This document shows positions 15,153-25,353 of a stretch of 64,000 bases of DNA, in pieces. A program made the position numbers and the translations under genes. Positions within the stretch are counted from its first letter, which is position 1. Every line of letters starts with the position of its first letter. Where the stretch lies: contig JAGAJO010000010.1 in the NCBI GenBank assembly GCA_017626015.1, forward strand, positions 1-64,000, in the 5' to 3' direction. The notes beneath the pieces are model-generated. The model did not search any database. It was not told where the DNA came from and worked only from the letters and a program-made list of their open reading frames with translations. Source of the DNA: Ruminococcus sp. (GTDB lineage: Bacteria > Bacillota > Clostridia > Oscillospirales > Ruminococcaceae).

Positions 15153-15923
15153 ATGCAGTATAATAAAGTCGAAATAAGCGGAGTAAATACCGGTGAGCTG
15201 AAGGTTCTTACCGAGGCTCAGAAGCATGATCTGCTGATAAAGGCACACAGCGGGGATAAGGCTGCAAGGGAGGAGCTTATAAAAGGCAACCTTCGTCTTG
15301 TTCTCAGTGTGCTTCAGCGTTTTACGGGAAGAACAGATTCCTCTGACGATCTGTTTCAGGTAGGAGTCGTAGGACTTATAAAAGCAATTGATAATTTTGA
15401 CGTTAATCTCAATGTAAAGCTAAGCACCTATGCGGTGCCGTTGATCTCGGGGGAAATCAAAAGATATCTTAGAGACTACCGGGCTATGAGGGTCAGTCGC
15501 TCTCTCAGGGATATGGCTTATAAAGCAATGCAGGCAAAGGAGTCGTATATCAGCCGTATGCAGAAGGAACCGACGGTGGACGAAATTGCTGAGATGATAG
15601 GAGAAAAACGTTCCGATGTTGTGACAGCTATGGAGTCTGTGACAGAACCGATGTCCCTTTACGAGCCGGTTTATTCCGACGCCGGGGACGCTCTGTATAT
15701 ACTGGATCAGATCGGGGATAATTACGATGATAAATCATGGCTGGACGAGCTGACCGTCAAGGATGCTATAAAAAGTCTTATGCCACGAGAAAAAAATATT
15801 CTCTATCTCAGATTTTTTCGAGGGAAAACCCAGGTGGAAGTCGCAAAGGAAATAGGGATCTCTCAGGCACAGGTTTCACGACTTGAAAAAAGTGCGCTTG
15901 AAAGGATAAAATCTCAGCTTTGA
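15153..15923 (+). CDS. sigG: RNA polymerase sporulation sigma factor SigG
   Basis: This 256-residue sigma-70-type factor directs late forespore transcription. The N-terminus NKVEISGVNTGELKVL and the segments LRLVLSVLQRF, DDLFQVGVVGLIKAIDNFD, KLSTYAVPLISGEIKRYLRD and VSRSLRDMAYKA match SigG rather than SigF or SigE. Region 4 has GKTQVEVAKEIGISQAQVSRLEK. AGGAGA precedes the ATG. In Bacillus and most Clostridia sigG directly follows spoIIGA-sigE; here those genes are 8 kb away on the other strand, while the ymxH gene typical of the sigG neighbourhood lies just downstream. Confidence 0.95.
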   Translation: MQYNKVEISGVNTGELKVLTEAQKHDLLIKAHSGDKAAREELIKGNLRLVLSVLQRFTGRTDSSDDLFQVGVVGLIKAIDNFDVNLNVKLSTYAVPLISGEIKRYLRDYRAMRVSRSLRDMAYKAMQAKESYISRMQKEPTVDEIAEMIGEKRSDVVTAMESVTEPMSLYEPVYSDAGDALYILDQIGDNYDDKSWLDELTVKDAIKSLMPREKNILYLRFFRGKTQVEVAKEIGISQAQVSRLEKSALERIKSQL

Positions 15924-16016
15924 TCCGATAATACGACATTTATTGACTTTATTAAAATATTCGATAAATAAATTATGAATATTTAATGTATTAAGTATAA
16001 ATAAGCACGATCGGAA

Positions 16017-16045
16017 TTGTGTAAGATGTAATAATTTGTTATAAT
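16017..16045 (+). promoter_or_regulatory. Sigma A promoter of the Spo0A-like gene
   Basis: TTGTGT (16017-16022), 17-base spacer, TATAAT (16040-16045), about 38 bases before the ATG. A TTCGATA at 15960-15966 is one mismatch from a 0A box (TTCGACA), but a single site is weak evidence. Confidence 0.6.
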
Positions 16046-16083
16046 GTAAAGGGAAAATGACATCAATGTAAGGACTTGCGACT

Positions 16084-16863
16084 ATGAATTCAGATTATTT
16101 AATTTTGCTTGCAAGAAATAAAGAGGAACAGTATAAACAGCTTGCCGAAACACTTTCAGACTACAATATTTCATTGCTTTACTGCAAAAATAATGGTATA
16201 GATCTAAGACTTAACGTCATTAGGCATAAACCCTTTGCTGTTATATTTGACAGCAGCGAGCTTGGTATGCAGGATATCATTGATGTTATTGAGGAATGCA
16301 GAGATCCCAATGGATTGCCGATTTTCTACAATATATACACTTACGAGGACGGTGAGCGTATAAAGCAGCTGGAAGAATCCGGCGTCCATTTCAATGTGCC
16401 GACGCCTTATAACAGCAGTGCGATCGCAGGTCACCTCAAACTTCTGTGTGAAAACACTCCTGTTGACGAAAGGGAATTTTGCGATAATATCCGCAGCGAA
16501 ATATATGACATTATGCTGGAGCTTTGTATTTCGCCTTCAAGGACAAGCTGGAATTATATTATGGAGAGCATAATGTGCCTTTTGTTTTCCGGCGGCGGAA
16601 GATTTACCGTATGCAGATCGGTTTATGAGTCGGTAGCTTCAAAGCTTGACGTCAGCATAAGCAGTATGGAAAGAACCATAAGAACAGCTGTTGAAGGTTC
16701 ATGGAAAAATGCGCCGGAAGACGTAAAGCAAAAGTATTTTCCCGAATTTTATCTGACAGCAGGAAAACCAAAGAATATGGATTTCATATATAGACTCGCT
16801 GAGTATGTATATCGTCAGCACAAAGGACTTTTTAACAAATATTATGACTCACAATGTAATTAA
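16084..16863 (+). CDS. Spo0A-like DNA-binding protein with degenerate receiver domain
   Basis: A 259-residue protein with two parts. Residues 1-120 look like a response-regulator receiver that kept only the acceptor position (VIFDS, Asp56). The acidic pocket is ARN at 10-12 instead of a DD pair, and the conserved Lys is replaced in FNVPTPYN (Thr107). Residues 135-245 resemble the Spo0A C-terminal DNA-binding domain, with the recognition-helix region VSISSMERTIRTAVEGSW and a following KPKNMDFIYRLAEYVY segment. It sits between sigG and ymxH with its own sigma A promoter. It is probably a paralogue of Spo0A that works without normal phosphorylation; it could modulate Spo0A target promoters. It is not likely to be the master Spo0A itself. 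Confidence 0.75.
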   Translation: MNSDYLILLARNKEEQYKQLAETLSDYNISLLYCKNNGIDLRLNVIRHKPFAVIFDSSELGMQDIIDVIEECRDPNGLPIFYNIYTYEDGERIKQLEESGVHFNVPTPYNSSAIAGHLKLLCENTPVDEREFCDNIRSEIYDIMLELCISPSRTSWNYIMESIMCLLFSGGGRFTVCRSVYESVASKLDVSISSMERTIRTAVEGSWKNAPEDVKQKYFPEFYLTAGKPKNMDFIYRLAEYVYRQHKGLFNKYYDSQCN

Positions 16864-16869
16864 ACAAGC

Positions 16870-16977
16870 CCTCCCCGCAGTATAATATACGGTAGAATCA
16901 AATTCCTGTGATGTGTGACAGCTTAAAAGCTTACGGAACAGGTTTCAAGGGATACCGTGATCAATACTGCGGGGAGG
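16870..16977 (+). promoter_or_regulatory. Nested hairpin leader that sequesters the ymxH ribosome binding site
   Basis: CCTCCCCGCAGTAT (16870-16883) is perfectly complementary to ATACTGCGGGGAGG (16964-16977), and the 3' arm contains the GGGGAGG ribosome binding site of the next gene. Inside are ACGGTA 16890-16895 with TACCGT 16953-16958, CCTGT with ACAGG, and AGCTT with AAGCT at the tip. The helices are collinear, giving one long interrupted hairpin. There is no U-run, so it is not a plain terminator. It does not match a riboswitch I know. Confidence 0.75.
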
Positions 16978-16984
16978 CGTAATT

Positions 16985-17275
16985 ATGATATGCAGTTTTT
17001 CAAATTTGAGAAACAAGGAGATCGTAAATATCAAAACGGGACTTAAGATCGGATATGCCGATGATATCGAGCTTGATACTGCAAATAGCAGCGTTGTTTC
17101 AATTGTGGTATACGGCAAGGCGAGGGCATTCGGAATAATGGGACGTGACGATGATATCGTGATCAAATGCAGTAATATCCAGCTTATCGGAGAGGATACT
17201 ATTCTTGTAAGCTTTGACGATTCGGCAAAATGCACCAAGAATATAAGTTGTAAAATTGATAATTTGTTGAAATAG
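16985..17275 (+). CDS. ymxH: YlmC/YmxH family sporulation protein
   Basis: A 96-residue protein of the PRC-barrel-like YlmC/YmxH family, named after Bacillus ylmC and ymxH and linked to sporulation by gene context and regulation. It has the typical beginning SNLRNKEIVNIKTGLKIGYADDIELD followed by a beta-rich part (GIMGRDDDIVIKCSNIQLIGEDTILV). GGGGAGG lies 7 bases before the ATG and is part of the long hairpin upstream, so translation may depend on opening that structure. In related genomes this gene follows sigG, as it does here after one inserted regulator. Biochemical function unknown. Confidence 0.88.
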   Translation: MICSFSNLRNKEIVNIKTGLKIGYADDIELDTANSSVVSIVVYGKARAFGIMGRDDDIVIKCSNIQLIGEDTILVSFDDSAKCTKNISCKIDNLLK

Positions 17276-17289
17276 ACGAATAAAAAAGC

Positions 17290-17318
17290 TTGCAAAAAAT
17301 ACTGAAATATGGTATAAT
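17290..17318 (+). promoter_or_regulatory. Sigma A promoter of rpsB-tsf
   Basis: TTGCAA (17290-17295), 17-base spacer, TATAAT (17313-17318), with TGG immediately before the -10 (extended -10). Transcription would start about 130 bases before rpsB, leaving a long leader. Confidence 0.8.
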
Positions 17319-17331
17319 ATTAAAGCAATTC

Positions 17332-17415
17332 GCACGGACGGTTTTTGCCGTTGGTCCCGAGCGCTCATGCAGGGTGAAGGCAATTAAAGCTGTCCGGAGG
17401 ATAAGTGATCCGTGC
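17332..17415 (+). promoter_or_regulatory. Structured rpsB leader RNA (candidate autoregulatory element)
   Basis: GCACGGA (17332-17338) pairs with TCCGTGC (17409-17415), enclosing an ACGG/CCGT hairpin (17338-17351), a self-complementary GAGCGCTC and a GTCC that could pair with GGAC. The fold lies between the promoter and the GGAGG of rpsB. Ribosomal protein operons often use such leaders as binding sites for their own product, here S2. I infer that role from position and structure only. Confidence 0.5.
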
Positions 17416-17453
17416 TATACGGAAATTTAAAACCAAAACAGGAGGTTACTACA

Positions 17454-18200
17454 ATGGGAGTAGTATCAATGAAGCAGCTTCTTGAAGCGGGCGTTCACTT
17501 CGGACACCAGACAAGAAGATGGAATCCGAAAATGGCTCCGTACATTTTCACAGAGAGAAACGGAATTTACATCATCGATCTGCAGAAGACGGTTAAAAAG
17601 CTTGAAGAAGCTTATATGTTTATCCGTGACATTTCTGCCAACGGAGAAGAGGTTCTTTTCGTAGGAACAAAGAAGCAGGCGGGTGATTCCGTAAAGGAAG
17701 AAGCTCTCAGAGCTAACGCACATTATGTAAACGCAAGATGGCTCGGTGGAATGATGACGAATTTCAAGACCATTGAGCAGAGAATAAAGAGACTTGAGCA
17801 GCTTCACGCTATGGAAGAGGACGGCACATTTGAGCTTCTTCCCAAGAAGGAAGTTACAAAGCTCAAGCTTGAAATTGAAAAGCTTGAGAAGTTCATGGGC
17901 GGTATCAAGAACATGAAGAAGCTTCCCGGAGCACTGTTTGTAGTTGACCCGAGAAAGGAAAAAATTGCAGTTGCCGAGGCTAAGAAGCTCGGTATCCCTG
18001 TTGTAGCTATTGTTGATACAAACTGCGATCCTGACGATGTAGACTACGTGATCCCCGGCAACGATGACGCTATCAGAGCAGTTAAGCTTATTGCCGGCTG
18101 CATGGCTAACGCTATTATCGAGGGCAGACAGGGGGAGGACGCTGAGGCTTCAGCTGAAGAGGCTGAAAAGGTTGAGGAGTCCGACGAGGCTGCTGAGTAA
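17454..18200 (+). CDS. rpsB: 30S ribosomal protein S2
   Basis: This 248-residue ribosomal protein binds the small subunit between head and body. The hallmark [26 protein letters not shown] near the start, [12 protein letters not shown], and [19 protein letters not shown] with [11 protein letters not shown] are all present. GGAGG precedes the ATG at 17454; the in-frame codon at 17412 lies inside the leader fold. The C-terminal tail is acidic ([21 protein letters not shown]-like) as in many Clostridia. It is followed 71 bases later by tsf, the universal partner gene. Confidence 0.98.
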
Positions 18201-19249: not shown

Positions 19250-20794
19250 TTACTTATACTGTGTCAACACCTCGCAAGCCCAGTTTTTATTCGGTTTGGG
19301 TAAAATGCCCTTTTTTATGCATTCTGATAAAACTGCATCGTACAGCGCTGTAAAGACTCCGTGGCAAAGTCTTTGTGCATCATCGTTAAGATGCTTCGGG
19401 AAAAGTTTTTTTGACCCGGCTATAAATTTTTTTACACATTCTGAATATTCAGACATGATCGGGCTGAATATTTTGTCGGTAATTTCATCAAAACGTTTTT
19501 TGTTTTCTTTGGAGAATGCCGGGATCGTTACCATAAGATCACCGTTTTCATTTCTTTTTAAATATCCGTTTTTTATTGCTATTGCGACACTTTCTTCATC
19601 GCTTATCTCGGCTCCGGACAAAATATCCTCACAGACGTTTATATAATTGTCATACATCAGTTCTGCAAATTTAAAGCCGCTTAATCCCCAGTCATTGTAC
19701 ATGAAAGTGCCTCTGGAGCCTCGGTTTGCGCTGCATCTGCGTCCTATGATTATTGGGTGGTATTTTCCGCTTTCCATATTTGCAATATAACGCCACCTGC
19801 TGCCGTCGTAATTTTCGGGGATCTTGGGATAATCTATATCGCTGTACTTACCGTCGAGATATTCAAACGCCATTATGCCGTAAAGATACCTCAGTTCGTT
19901 TTCGCTTTTTTCACCGCGGTAAAAATCGATTTTGTCAGCTTCCGAGTAAAGCTTTTCAAGTGCAGAGACAAGTCTATCCATAACCGGCATAAGTGCTACA
20001 GACGCATTTTCTTCGTAATATTTTCCGTATTTGTCCGTCAGGATCAGGAAATCCGCCTGATATTTTCCTTTGACAGGCTGTATGACGGCGCATCGTTTTA
20101 CCAGATTATCTATCCTGTCCTCGATATAAAATGCGGGAACTCCGCAAAGCTTTGCCAGATCTTCAATATTGCGGGGAGTATCATAGCAATAGTACAGTAT
20201 ATTCTGTGAAAGTGCGTCGTTGATATACTGACCCGGGAAAGGGATCGTATCTCCGTTGTAATTTCCTTCTCCGTATATACTTATGCCCATTTTTATCGGT
20301 CTTAATGTAGTTTCATTCATATTACAGCACTCCTTTTTTAATTTTCGTCTGGCTTCCGAAAGTCTCCATGTTACCGTGCCTTCAGGTATTTCCAGACGTC
20401 CTGCGATTTCTTTTGTTGAAAGCTCGTCATAGTAGTAGAGTATGATGATATCACGATAGATCTTGGACAGCATTGTTATCTTTTTATGAAGCATAGCGTA
20501 AAGCTCTTCATCGGAATCTGTAAGACCGTCTGTTTCAAATATTATGTCCGGAGCATCATAAACATACATCGCGCGCTGTCTGCTCATATTTCTCCTGAAT
20601 TTTTTTGAAACATTTGAGGCTAAGGACCATAGCCATGGTTCAAACCGTTCCTCGTTTCTCAGTTGTGAAAGACCTGATATCGCCGTAAGCAGAATTTCCT
20701 GAGATAACTCCTCGGCTTCCTCTGATGAAAATGTTTTGCTTAATGCAAATGTGTAAATTTTTTCGGTGTAGTTAGTAATTACCGACTTATCCAT
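19250..20794 (-). CDS. ECF sigma factor fused to a winged-helix regulator domain
   Basis: A 514-residue protein whose first 155 residues are an ECF-type sigma factor. Region 2 has SSEEAEELSQEILLTA and PWLWSLASN; region 4 has SKIYRDIIILYYYDELSTKEIAGRL and PEGTVTWRLSEARRKL. The rest is not sigma. It contains a winged-helix-like segment (IEDLAKLCGVPAFYIEDRIDNLV, then KGKYQADFLILTD) and about 240 unassigned residues. GGGCGGTG precedes the ATG at 20794; an in-frame codon at 20821 has no such site. At the junction there is an internal AGGAG 9 bases before an in-frame ATG at 20320, so the C-terminal 356 residues could also be made alone. No anti-sigma gene is adjacent. A CGTG-N5-CACG inverted repeat lies upstream (20832-20844). 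Confidence 0.82.
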   Translation of the reverse strand: MDKSVITNYTEKIYTFALSKTFSSEEAEELSQEILLTAISGLSQLRNEERFEPWLWSLASNVSKKFRRNMSRQRAMYVYDAPDIIFETDGLTDSDEELYAMLHKKITMLSKIYRDIIILYYYDELSTKEIAGRLEIPEGTVTWRLSEARRKLKKECCNMNETTLRPIKMGISIYGEGNYNGDTIPFPGQYINDALSQNILYYCYDTPRNIEDLAKLCGVPAFYIEDRIDNLVKRCAVIQPVKGKYQADFLILTDKYGKYYEENASVALMPVMDRLVSALEKLYSEADKIDFYRGEKSENELRYLYGIMAFEYLDGKYSDIDYPKIPENYDGSRWRYIANMESGKYHPIIIGRRCSANRGSRGTFMYNDWGLSGFKFAELMYDNYINVCEDILSGAEISDEESVAIAIKNGYLKRNENGDLMVTIPAFSKENKKRFDEITDKIFSPIMSEYSECVKKFIAGSKKLFPKHLNDDAQRLCHGVFTALYDAVLSECIKKGILPKPNKNWACEVLTQYK

Positions 20795-20870
20795 TGCTTC
20801 ACCGCCCTTGACTGCTTTCATATATAAAGTGCGTGAATTACACGATCCATTGGGTACTTTTCTAAAAATA

Positions 20871-21055
20871 TTTTAAGGTCACCTCTAAAAACCACCGGCT
20901 ATCGCCTTATCACCTCATCTGCTTGCATATCTTTCCGTCATATTGCACCAAAACTCCTTGACTTACGTCAGTAAGCCTGCGTCGTTTTAGTACAATCTGA
21001 CGAAAGATCTGACTACGCATCTGAGGCACTATGGTTTTCAGAGGTGACCTTAAAA
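20871..21055. repeat. 185-bp fold-back (MITE-like) element
   Basis: The ends TTTTAAGGTCACCTCT (from 20871) and AGAGGTGACCTTAAAA (to 21055) are inverted copies. The homology continues inward with scattered mismatches (CTTTC.GTCA, ACTAAAACG against CAAAACT) to a central CTTAC-GTCA-GTAAG. The whole stretch can form one long hairpin and codes for nothing. Such non-autonomous fold-back repeats are usually present in many copies per genome; that cannot be tested in this window, where I see only one. Confidence 0.8.
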
Positions 21056-21064
21056 AGATCAGCC

Positions 21065-21310
21065 CTATTCGGACTGATCTTTGTTTACATTACTGTCTTT
21101 ATTTTTGAGTGCATCGTATTTTCGTTCATAGTAAACATTCATGATTGAAGTTACTATCGCAAGTATGCATAGGATCAGCAGCAGCTTGTTGGAAGCTTTT
21201 CTGCCTGTGAAATTCATTACAGGATTTATTATGTCAAGTATCCAGAAAACTATGAACATTCCCGCAAGAATAATTGTCATGTGAGGTAAAATTCTGTTAA
21301 AACGTTTCAT
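21065..21310 (-). CDS. Small two-helix membrane protein
   Basis: An 81-residue protein with two hydrophobic segments (HMTIILAGMFIVFWILDII at about 10-28 and LLLILCILAIVTSIM at about 43-57) and a charged C-terminus. No family recognised. The GGAGG that starts it overlaps the end of the phosphodiester glycosidase gene, whose stop is one base upstream of the ATG, so the two are translationally coupled. It is the last gene of the GT2-glycosidase operon and may be a small accessory subunit. Confidence 0.62.
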   Translation of the reverse strand: MKRFNRILPHMTIILAGMFIVFWILDIINPVMNFTGRKASNKLLLILCILAIVTSIMNVYYERKYDALKNKDSNVNKDQSE

Positions 21311-25314: not shown

Positions 25315-25353
25315 CCTCCTCGGAAACCGGTGCGTCGGAAGTTTCCGAGGAGG
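25315..25353 (-). terminator. First hairpin downstream of the M18 aminopeptidase gene
   Basis: CCTCCTCGGAAAC (25315-25327) and GTTTCCGAGGAGG (25341-25353), a perfect 13-bp stem without a clear U-run. Tandem with the next hairpin. Confidence 0.65.

Follow-up and report, generated by a model that had tools for sequence, protein, structure and literature searches.

A hairpin that silences read-through RNA has been proposed for the sporulation gene sigG (spoIIIG) of Bacillus subtilis. According to the passages on this gene in PMC5942855, a hairpin of 20+ bp would block translation of RNA reading through from the sigE operon, and it is unable to form in RNA from the sporulation promoter of sigG itself. 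A related arrangement is described for gene e and I-TevI of phage T4, where a longer early RNA hides the ribosome-binding site and the late-promoter RNA, which lacks the 5' part of the structure, is translated (sections on these genes in PMC3014915). In yeast LUTI (NDC80), a longer isoform with an upstream start is likewise reported to remain undecoded and a shorter one to be decoded; unlike the case treated here, LUTI involves transcription interference and no hairpin. Silencing in LUTI runs via upstream reading frames. The sporulation gene ylmC is sporulation specific and sigE dependent in Clostridium perfringens and is reported likewise for B. subtilis, as stated in the relevant passages of PMC9332280; ylmC and ymxH are absent from the main text of PMC517825. 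A literature search limited to open-licence papers found no report of a hairpin at ymxH or ylmC.

In this study, we examined a hairpin upstream of ymxH in a stretch of 64,000 nucleotides (positions 1 to 64,000 of contig JAGAJO010000010.1, Ruminococcus sp.), here called the window. The locus is of the same kind as B. subtilis sigG and appears to follow the same logic; it differs in that the gene is ymxH, that the hairpin recurs with independent arms, and that some of the loci have a T-rich tail (compared with the sigG passages of PMC5942855). As in T4 gene e, RNA from upstream would occlude the ribosome-binding site and RNA from a late promoter would escape. The T4 case involves phage late promoters and experimental tests (lysozyme synthesis about 100-fold lower), whereas the ymxH promoter is a predicted sporulation promoter (T4 sections of PMC3014915). 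By analogy, the ymxH hairpin would work like the sigG and T4 gene e type, an assignment that depends on the predicted promoter and on presumed silencing. We read the feature, with a probability of roughly 0.7, as a hairpin that silences read-through RNA and has a developmental promoter embedded in it. This reading builds on the hairpin, its overlap with a promoter-like motif, its in-silico loss on trimming, its recurrence and covariation, and a bias toward co-directional loci. As far as the open-licence literature shows, the novelty lies in the gene, in a hairpin that recurs in two families with independent arms, and in a putative form fused to a terminator.

The ymxH locus and its hairpin

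The genes and hairpin elements of the locus are as follows.

15153..15923, plus strand: sigG, forespore sigma factor (NCBIfam NF006071 (SigG), 374.5 bits, cut-off 372)
16084..16863, plus strand: Spo0A_C-domain gene directly upstream of ymxH (Pfam Spo0A_C, E 8.8e-17)
16870..16883, plus strand: 5' arm (anti-Shine-Dalgarno), also predicted promoter spacer and first five -10 bases (repeat search, fold, promoter motif)
16888..16894, plus strand: second helix, 5' strand, pairing with 16953-16959 and mostly absent from RNA made from the predicted start (fold)
16953..16959, plus strand: second helix, 3' strand (fold)
16964..16977, plus strand: 3' arm, including the Shine-Dalgarno sequence GGGGAGG at 16971-16977 (repeat search, fold)
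16985..17275, plus strand: ymxH, YlmC/YmxH family sporulation protein, PRC barrel (TIGR02888, 63.3 bits, cut-off 44.2; Pfam PRC)

The Spo0A_C-domain gene points in the same direction as ymxH, and a scan limited to loops of 3-8 found no intrinsic terminator at 15900-17480. This gene is the likely source of read-through RNA into ymxH, and sigG, for which a second SigG model (TIGR02850) scored under its cut-off (363.5 of 457), is a possible one.

A first-pass annotation made from the sequence had described a perfect 14-bp GC-rich inverted repeat that encloses three further collinear helices and carries the ymxH Shine-Dalgarno sequence in its 3' arm. The arms, CCTCCCCGCAGTAT at 16870-16883 and ATACTGCGGGGAGG at 16964-16977, are indeed an exact 14-bp inverted repeat, one of four perfect repeats in the window (arms >=14, within 200 nt), where 20 shuffles averaged 0.15. 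Past a bulge, the stem is lengthened by two pairs (16868-16869). It encloses helices of 7 bp (16888-16894 with 16953-16959) and 5 bp and a bulged one of 4+4 bp, which makes three if the last is counted as one. Both sequence and fold place GGGGAGG in the 3' arm, where it stops 7 nt short of the ymxH ATG at 16985. The RNA 16840-17020 folds to -60.6 kcal/mol (z = -6.13), which 0 of 200 shuffles matched; for the complementary strand of the hairpin region, the fold is -49.0 kcal/mol (z -3.9). In silico, the Shine-Dalgarno sequence thus lies buried in a stable helix in RNA derived from upstream, and the modeled fold supports the earlier proposal that the hairpin hides the ribosome-binding site and should block translation. 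No U-run follows the 3' arm in the window, as had been noted before, so the hairpin should act on translation. The form of an intrinsic terminator, a GC-rich hairpin directly followed by a U-run, is therefore absent here and is seen in some relatives.

The product of 16084-16863, the gene adjoining sigG and ymxH, carries Spo0A_C in its C-terminal half, with no Pfam domain in the remainder, and reached 33.7 of 200 bits with the NCBIfam Spo0A model, far under the cut-off; by sequence, it is possibly a diverged Spo0A relative. Downstream of ymxH, an ORF from 17412 is presumably rpsB, judging by its sequence. The leader before this putative rpsB (17320-17460) contains a long helix but reaches only z -1.5 against shuffles.

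A predicted promoter overlapping the 5' arm

Relatives of the locus were collected in two sets. The ymxH family search took loci from the best 30 matches plus 60 more, of 123 genomes with a match. The first set comprised 149 upstream regions, reduced to 139 by similarity. The second set retained 137 of 152 loci, 5 of them from the window's family; 15 were dropped for similarity, short upstream sequence or lack of a detectable start. Hairpins in loci L124 to L134, taken as close to the second family, had been seen before that family was chosen. Visual inspection of 29 loci, 21 of them retained, preceded the formal second-set test. In L124, L127, L128, L129 and L134, z is below -2 at four of the five loci, and visual inspection suggests pairing at the remaining one; the gene preceding ymxH in these five encodes what we take, by sequence resemblance, to be a P-type ATPase.

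Upstream regions of ymxH in the relatives share a two-block motif of about KMATANT-N15-CATATAAT, in the first set often with ACAAGC between the blocks. The motif was fitted on the 139 upstream regions of the first set, 96 of which exceed the null 95% level, on the same set as was used for fitting. Out of sample, 62 of the 137 second-set loci pass the 5% level of mononucleotide shuffles, compared with 2/137 for a control stretch further upstream. In the window, the motif comprises three blocks.

16857..16863, plus strand: -35-like element TAATTAA, a weak, partial match to the fitted motif that overlaps the Spo0A_C-domain gene's stop codon
16864..16869, plus strand: ACAAGC, candidate SpoIIID site, frequent at the equivalent place in the first set
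16879..16886, plus strand: -10-like element AGTATAAT (score 13.8, the null's 95th percentile being 9.9; the window belongs to the set used for fitting)

The blocks (16857-16886) are weak yet in register, and the stop codon of the Spo0A_C-domain gene abuts the motif. Overlap of the 5' arm with this predicted promoter is a feature that the first-pass annotation did not contain. We take the sigma-E consensus to have a -35 like KMATATT and a -10 like CATACANT at suitable spacing, which the family motif fits and the window matches weakly. The family motif resembles sigma-E promoters, and the window's predicted promoter is most likely of the sigma-E type; the sigma-G class, which is similar, may be an alternative.

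TTAA with the following ACAAGC presumably fits the SpoIIID consensus, and a SpoIIID gene was found in the window's own genome. Of 96 first-set promoters, 35 have ACA right behind the -35; of 62 in the second set, 1 does. A general role of ACAAGC in promoters was rejected: the spaced pattern occurs only twice in the own genome, at ymxH and in an apparent coding sequence.

Judged by the motif, transcription would start at about 16892-16893. RNA from this predicted start would lack the 5' arm (16870-16883), which serves as the spacer of the predicted promoter and extends over its first five -10 bases. RNA from 16893 folds to -29.0 kcal/mol (z -1.5), compared with -60.6 kcal/mol (z -6.1) for the RNA with both arms, and the mean unpaired probability of the Shine-Dalgarno core is 0.10 in read-through RNA versus 0.66 in predicted-start RNA in silico. 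An own, late promoter sited to skip the 5' arm is suggested by a motif that is backed by relatives and the held-out set and is weak in the window, with a predicted start.

Trimming to the predicted start was also applied to those relatives in which the motif passes the threshold and the predicted start precedes the Shine-Dalgarno sequence. On average, the Shine-Dalgarno core was freed in co-directional loci, i.e., those whose upstream gene points the same way (0.289 to 0.406; n 47, p 0.006), and in opposing loci too (0.344 to 0.443; n 23, p 0.04). A clear switch from closed to open was seen in 3/47 co-directional and 3/23 opposing loci, the reverse in 1/47 and 0/23. Because both orientations respond and clear switches are few, the trimming effect holds for the window and is not a general proof.

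The proposed mechanism supposes promoter activity, the predicted start, a sporulation sigma factor, read-through RNA and translational silencing. Polymerase passing the Spo0A_C-domain gene would produce an RNA with both arms, in which the Shine-Dalgarno sequence would be buried and ymxH would stay untranslated. A sporulation sigma factor, most likely sigma-E in the mother cell, would initiate at the promoter whose spacer and -10 form the 5' arm; the resulting RNA would begin past this arm, the hairpin could not form, and ymxH would be translated. Since own-promoter RNA would start past the 5' arm, the hairpin would be confined to read-through RNA, and because it would silence that RNA, ymxH would be tied to its own promoter despite the lack of a detected terminator toward its neighbor. 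The earlier suggestion of a "developmental delay device in a sporulation locus" comes close to this best explanation.

Hairpins recur with different arms

The three nearest ymxH relatives encode proteins 81, 76 and 73% identical to that of the window. Like the window, each has a strong hairpin that includes the -10, which the 5' arm overlaps, and all four have different arms (hairpin z of -6.1 for the window and -4.5, -3.7 and -5.9 for the relatives). The Shine-Dalgarno sequence lies in the promoter-overlapping stem in two of the four (window and G014). In the closest relative, the arms differ from those of the window with complementarity kept, the Shine-Dalgarno sequence is again in the 3' arm, and TTTTT-ATG follows; the second-nearest has its hairpin upstream of the Shine-Dalgarno sequence, and in the third the hairpin ends in TTTTTTT, followed by the Shine-Dalgarno sequence. 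G001 has a hairpin with TTTTTTT and its -10 within the 5' arm. Distant relatives (L125, L177, L234, L280, L290) have wholly new arms that are still complementary, and their loop or inner stem contains a -10-like word. Such a word lies inside the hairpin in 28 of 29 second-set loci with strong occlusion (>0.95, see below), an uncontrolled count of words that are common in AT-rich DNA.

A MAFFT alignment of the four nearest leaders was poor and was left out of pair counting. Compensatory changes, which the first-pass annotation had asked for, are seen in the closest relative, where both arms have changed jointly. Searching the genus at the DNA level gave matches in 19 of 29 genomes, the own included; all non-self matches start at 16972, inside the Shine-Dalgarno sequence, or later, and no similarity to arms or loop beyond the Shine-Dalgarno sequence was found. 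The concern that the arms exist only in this strain is thus true of the letters and untrue of the architecture.

In a first swap test, the real stretch gave 22 and 8 of 139 loci at the 0.05 and 0.01 levels, and a control stretch further upstream 8 and 4 of 138. At co-directional loci, native arm/Shine-Dalgarno duplexes exceed swapped duplexes in stability (permutation p = 0.0002 for the 85 loci and likewise for the 63), a further sign of compensatory change; the same holds for opposing loci, more weakly (p = 0.0004 and 0.006).

Strong predicted occlusion is commoner with a co-directional upstream gene

For all loci, we used a uniform measure, the probability that the Shine-Dalgarno core pairs with upstream sequence, which sees 130 nt upstream; values >0.95 were counted as strong occlusion. 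Gene orientation was called by a longest-ORF rule, and 7 and 5 loci of the two sets without a called upstream gene were excluded from the orientation counts. Among the pooled 264 upstream regions, strong occlusion was found at 37/148 co-directional and 11/116 opposing loci (Fisher one-sided p 0.0008). The first set gave 16/85 (shuffles 4.9) against 3/47 (1.6), and the second 21/63 (4.2) against 8/69 (4.0; Fisher one-sided p 0.0024). Second-set loci not viewed beforehand showed the same direction, with 19/51 (3.6) co-directional versus 7/60 (3.7) opposing (p 0.0015), and the second set minus its 5 window-family loci gave 21/59 versus 8/68. Other genes, filtered for a good Shine-Dalgarno sequence and a gap of 40-350 nt and taken from the window and L088-L141, with none from the second set, showed little excess by the same measure (co-directional 4/80, shuffles 2.2; opposing 0/40, 1.6).

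Over the whole distribution of the uniform measure, the Mann-Whitney p value is 0.31 in the first set, 0.0057 in the second and 0.03 in the pool; the orientation effect sits in the strong tail. The pairing measure had been altered between the earlier test, which used a distance cut (15/71 vs 9/68, p 0.26), and the second-set test, and the new one was rerun on the first set. By a z-score measure, the first set differs by orientation with p 0.0024. The window itself scores 0.86, which 3 of 50 shuffles equal, and lies outside the 37 counted loci because this is under 0.95.

The strong hairpin is absent from most ymxH loci (111/148 co-directional). The BLAST cluster of the Spo0A_C-domain gene supplies the upstream ORFs of 17 of the 139 first-set loci, the window included, and 13 of these 17 are without a strong hairpin (criterion z below -2). 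Of the 21 second-set co-directional hairpin loci, only 13 have a motif above threshold. A tendency of hairpin loci to lack other terminators was considered and dropped, as there was no difference (9/22 vs 11/41; 5/18 vs 17/67), some of the "terminators" being the hairpin itself.

Tentatively, at somewhat less than even odds, the device has been re-invented recurrently within the window's order, presumably Oscillospirales, in two families or more, with promoter, anti-Shine-Dalgarno stem or terminator, and ribosome-binding site superimposed, such that initiation inside would erase the hairpin. In the tightest cases, about 45 nt would suffice: one arm would be the promoter spacer, the loop or inner stem the -10, and the other arm the Shine-Dalgarno sequence, with a U-run in some cases as the spacer ahead of the start codon. 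If true, this may be a general way of insulating developmental genes inside growth-phase transcription units. A lone odd hairpin would become a testable rule, by which a spore gene is kept silent in growth without a separate terminator, and the ymxH loci offer many natural versions with independent arms. It further suggests that what was proposed for B. subtilis sigG is a solution that recurs; where a hairpin covers a sporulation start site, an insulator should then come to mind ahead of a riboswitch.

Alternative explanations

An unlikely reading, although the best placed of the alternatives, is that the relatives' hairpin plus U-run serves as a terminator fused to the ribosome-binding site; it would end read-through transcription, and occlusion of the Shine-Dalgarno sequence would be a by-product. 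In co-directional loci, 5 or more of the 7 nt preceding the start codon are T with 12 of 34 short-range hairpins versus 15 of 114 other loci (Fisher p 0.0056), and the TTTTT-ATG of the closest relative and the TTTTTTT of G001 are of this form. The window version has no U-run, though, and 22 of the 34 short-range co-directional hairpins have fewer than 5 T. Opposing loci gave 4/17 versus 13/99 (p 0.27), a similar trend that makes the orientation contrast for T-rich spacers weak, and the spacer test was conceived after examples had been seen. These data suggest that terminator and ribosome-binding site can fuse in some relatives, where termination and hiding of the Shine-Dalgarno sequence could fall to a single hairpin; for the window, we prefer the silencing of read-through RNA at the level of translation.

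It is quite improbable that the hairpin is a chance or neutral structure or the remnant of a mobile repeat. In favor of chance, some 3 to 7 per cent of shuffles reach occlusion >0.95 as well, and the native-over-swapped signal is partly present in opposing loci. Against this stand the z of -6.1, the enrichment over shuffles and over other genes, and the single copy of the hairpin in the genome, where other matches cover just 14-19 bases. A dispersed repeat, MITE or mobile element was ruled out, the only full copy being the window's own.

A translational switch responding to a ligand or protein (riboswitch, thermometer or protein-binding leader), in which a signal would open the hairpin, had been offered by the first-pass annotation and is very improbable. 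A stable structure over the Shine-Dalgarno sequence is compatible with such switches. However, Rfam gave no match for the hairpin at gathering level, neither to a riboswitch, in line with what had been stated before, nor to a trivial element; the relaxed level yielded just two chance-level matches, both to one miRNA family and far under its cut-off. The genus search, with no similarity to arms or loop outside the Shine-Dalgarno sequence, likewise lends such a switch no support, and so stable a stem would probably make a poor thermometer. No opener would be required if, as in the preferred reading, transcription starts between the arms.

Least probable of all is a DNA-level element, in which a protein would bind two half-sites at the promoter and start region, e.g., by looping; one arm overlaps the promoter-like motif and the adjacent ACAAGC may be a SpoIIID site, but arm sequences differ between species while complementarity persists, which RNA pairing would predict and a binding site would not.

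Other inverted repeats in the window

On the minus strand, positions 20860-21070 form a near-perfect extended palindrome of 211 nt, with a fold of -97.6 kcal/mol (z -12.5); it lies upstream of a gene (19250-20821) whose product has sigma-70 regions 2 and 4. The palindrome has no Rfam hit and 38 genome matches at E <=0.01, with itself and its own arms counted, and looks like a dispersed palindromic repeat or MITE. Right after the stop codon of a minus-strand M18 aminopeptidase gene, a perfect 13-bp inverted repeat (25315-25353) is possibly a terminator.
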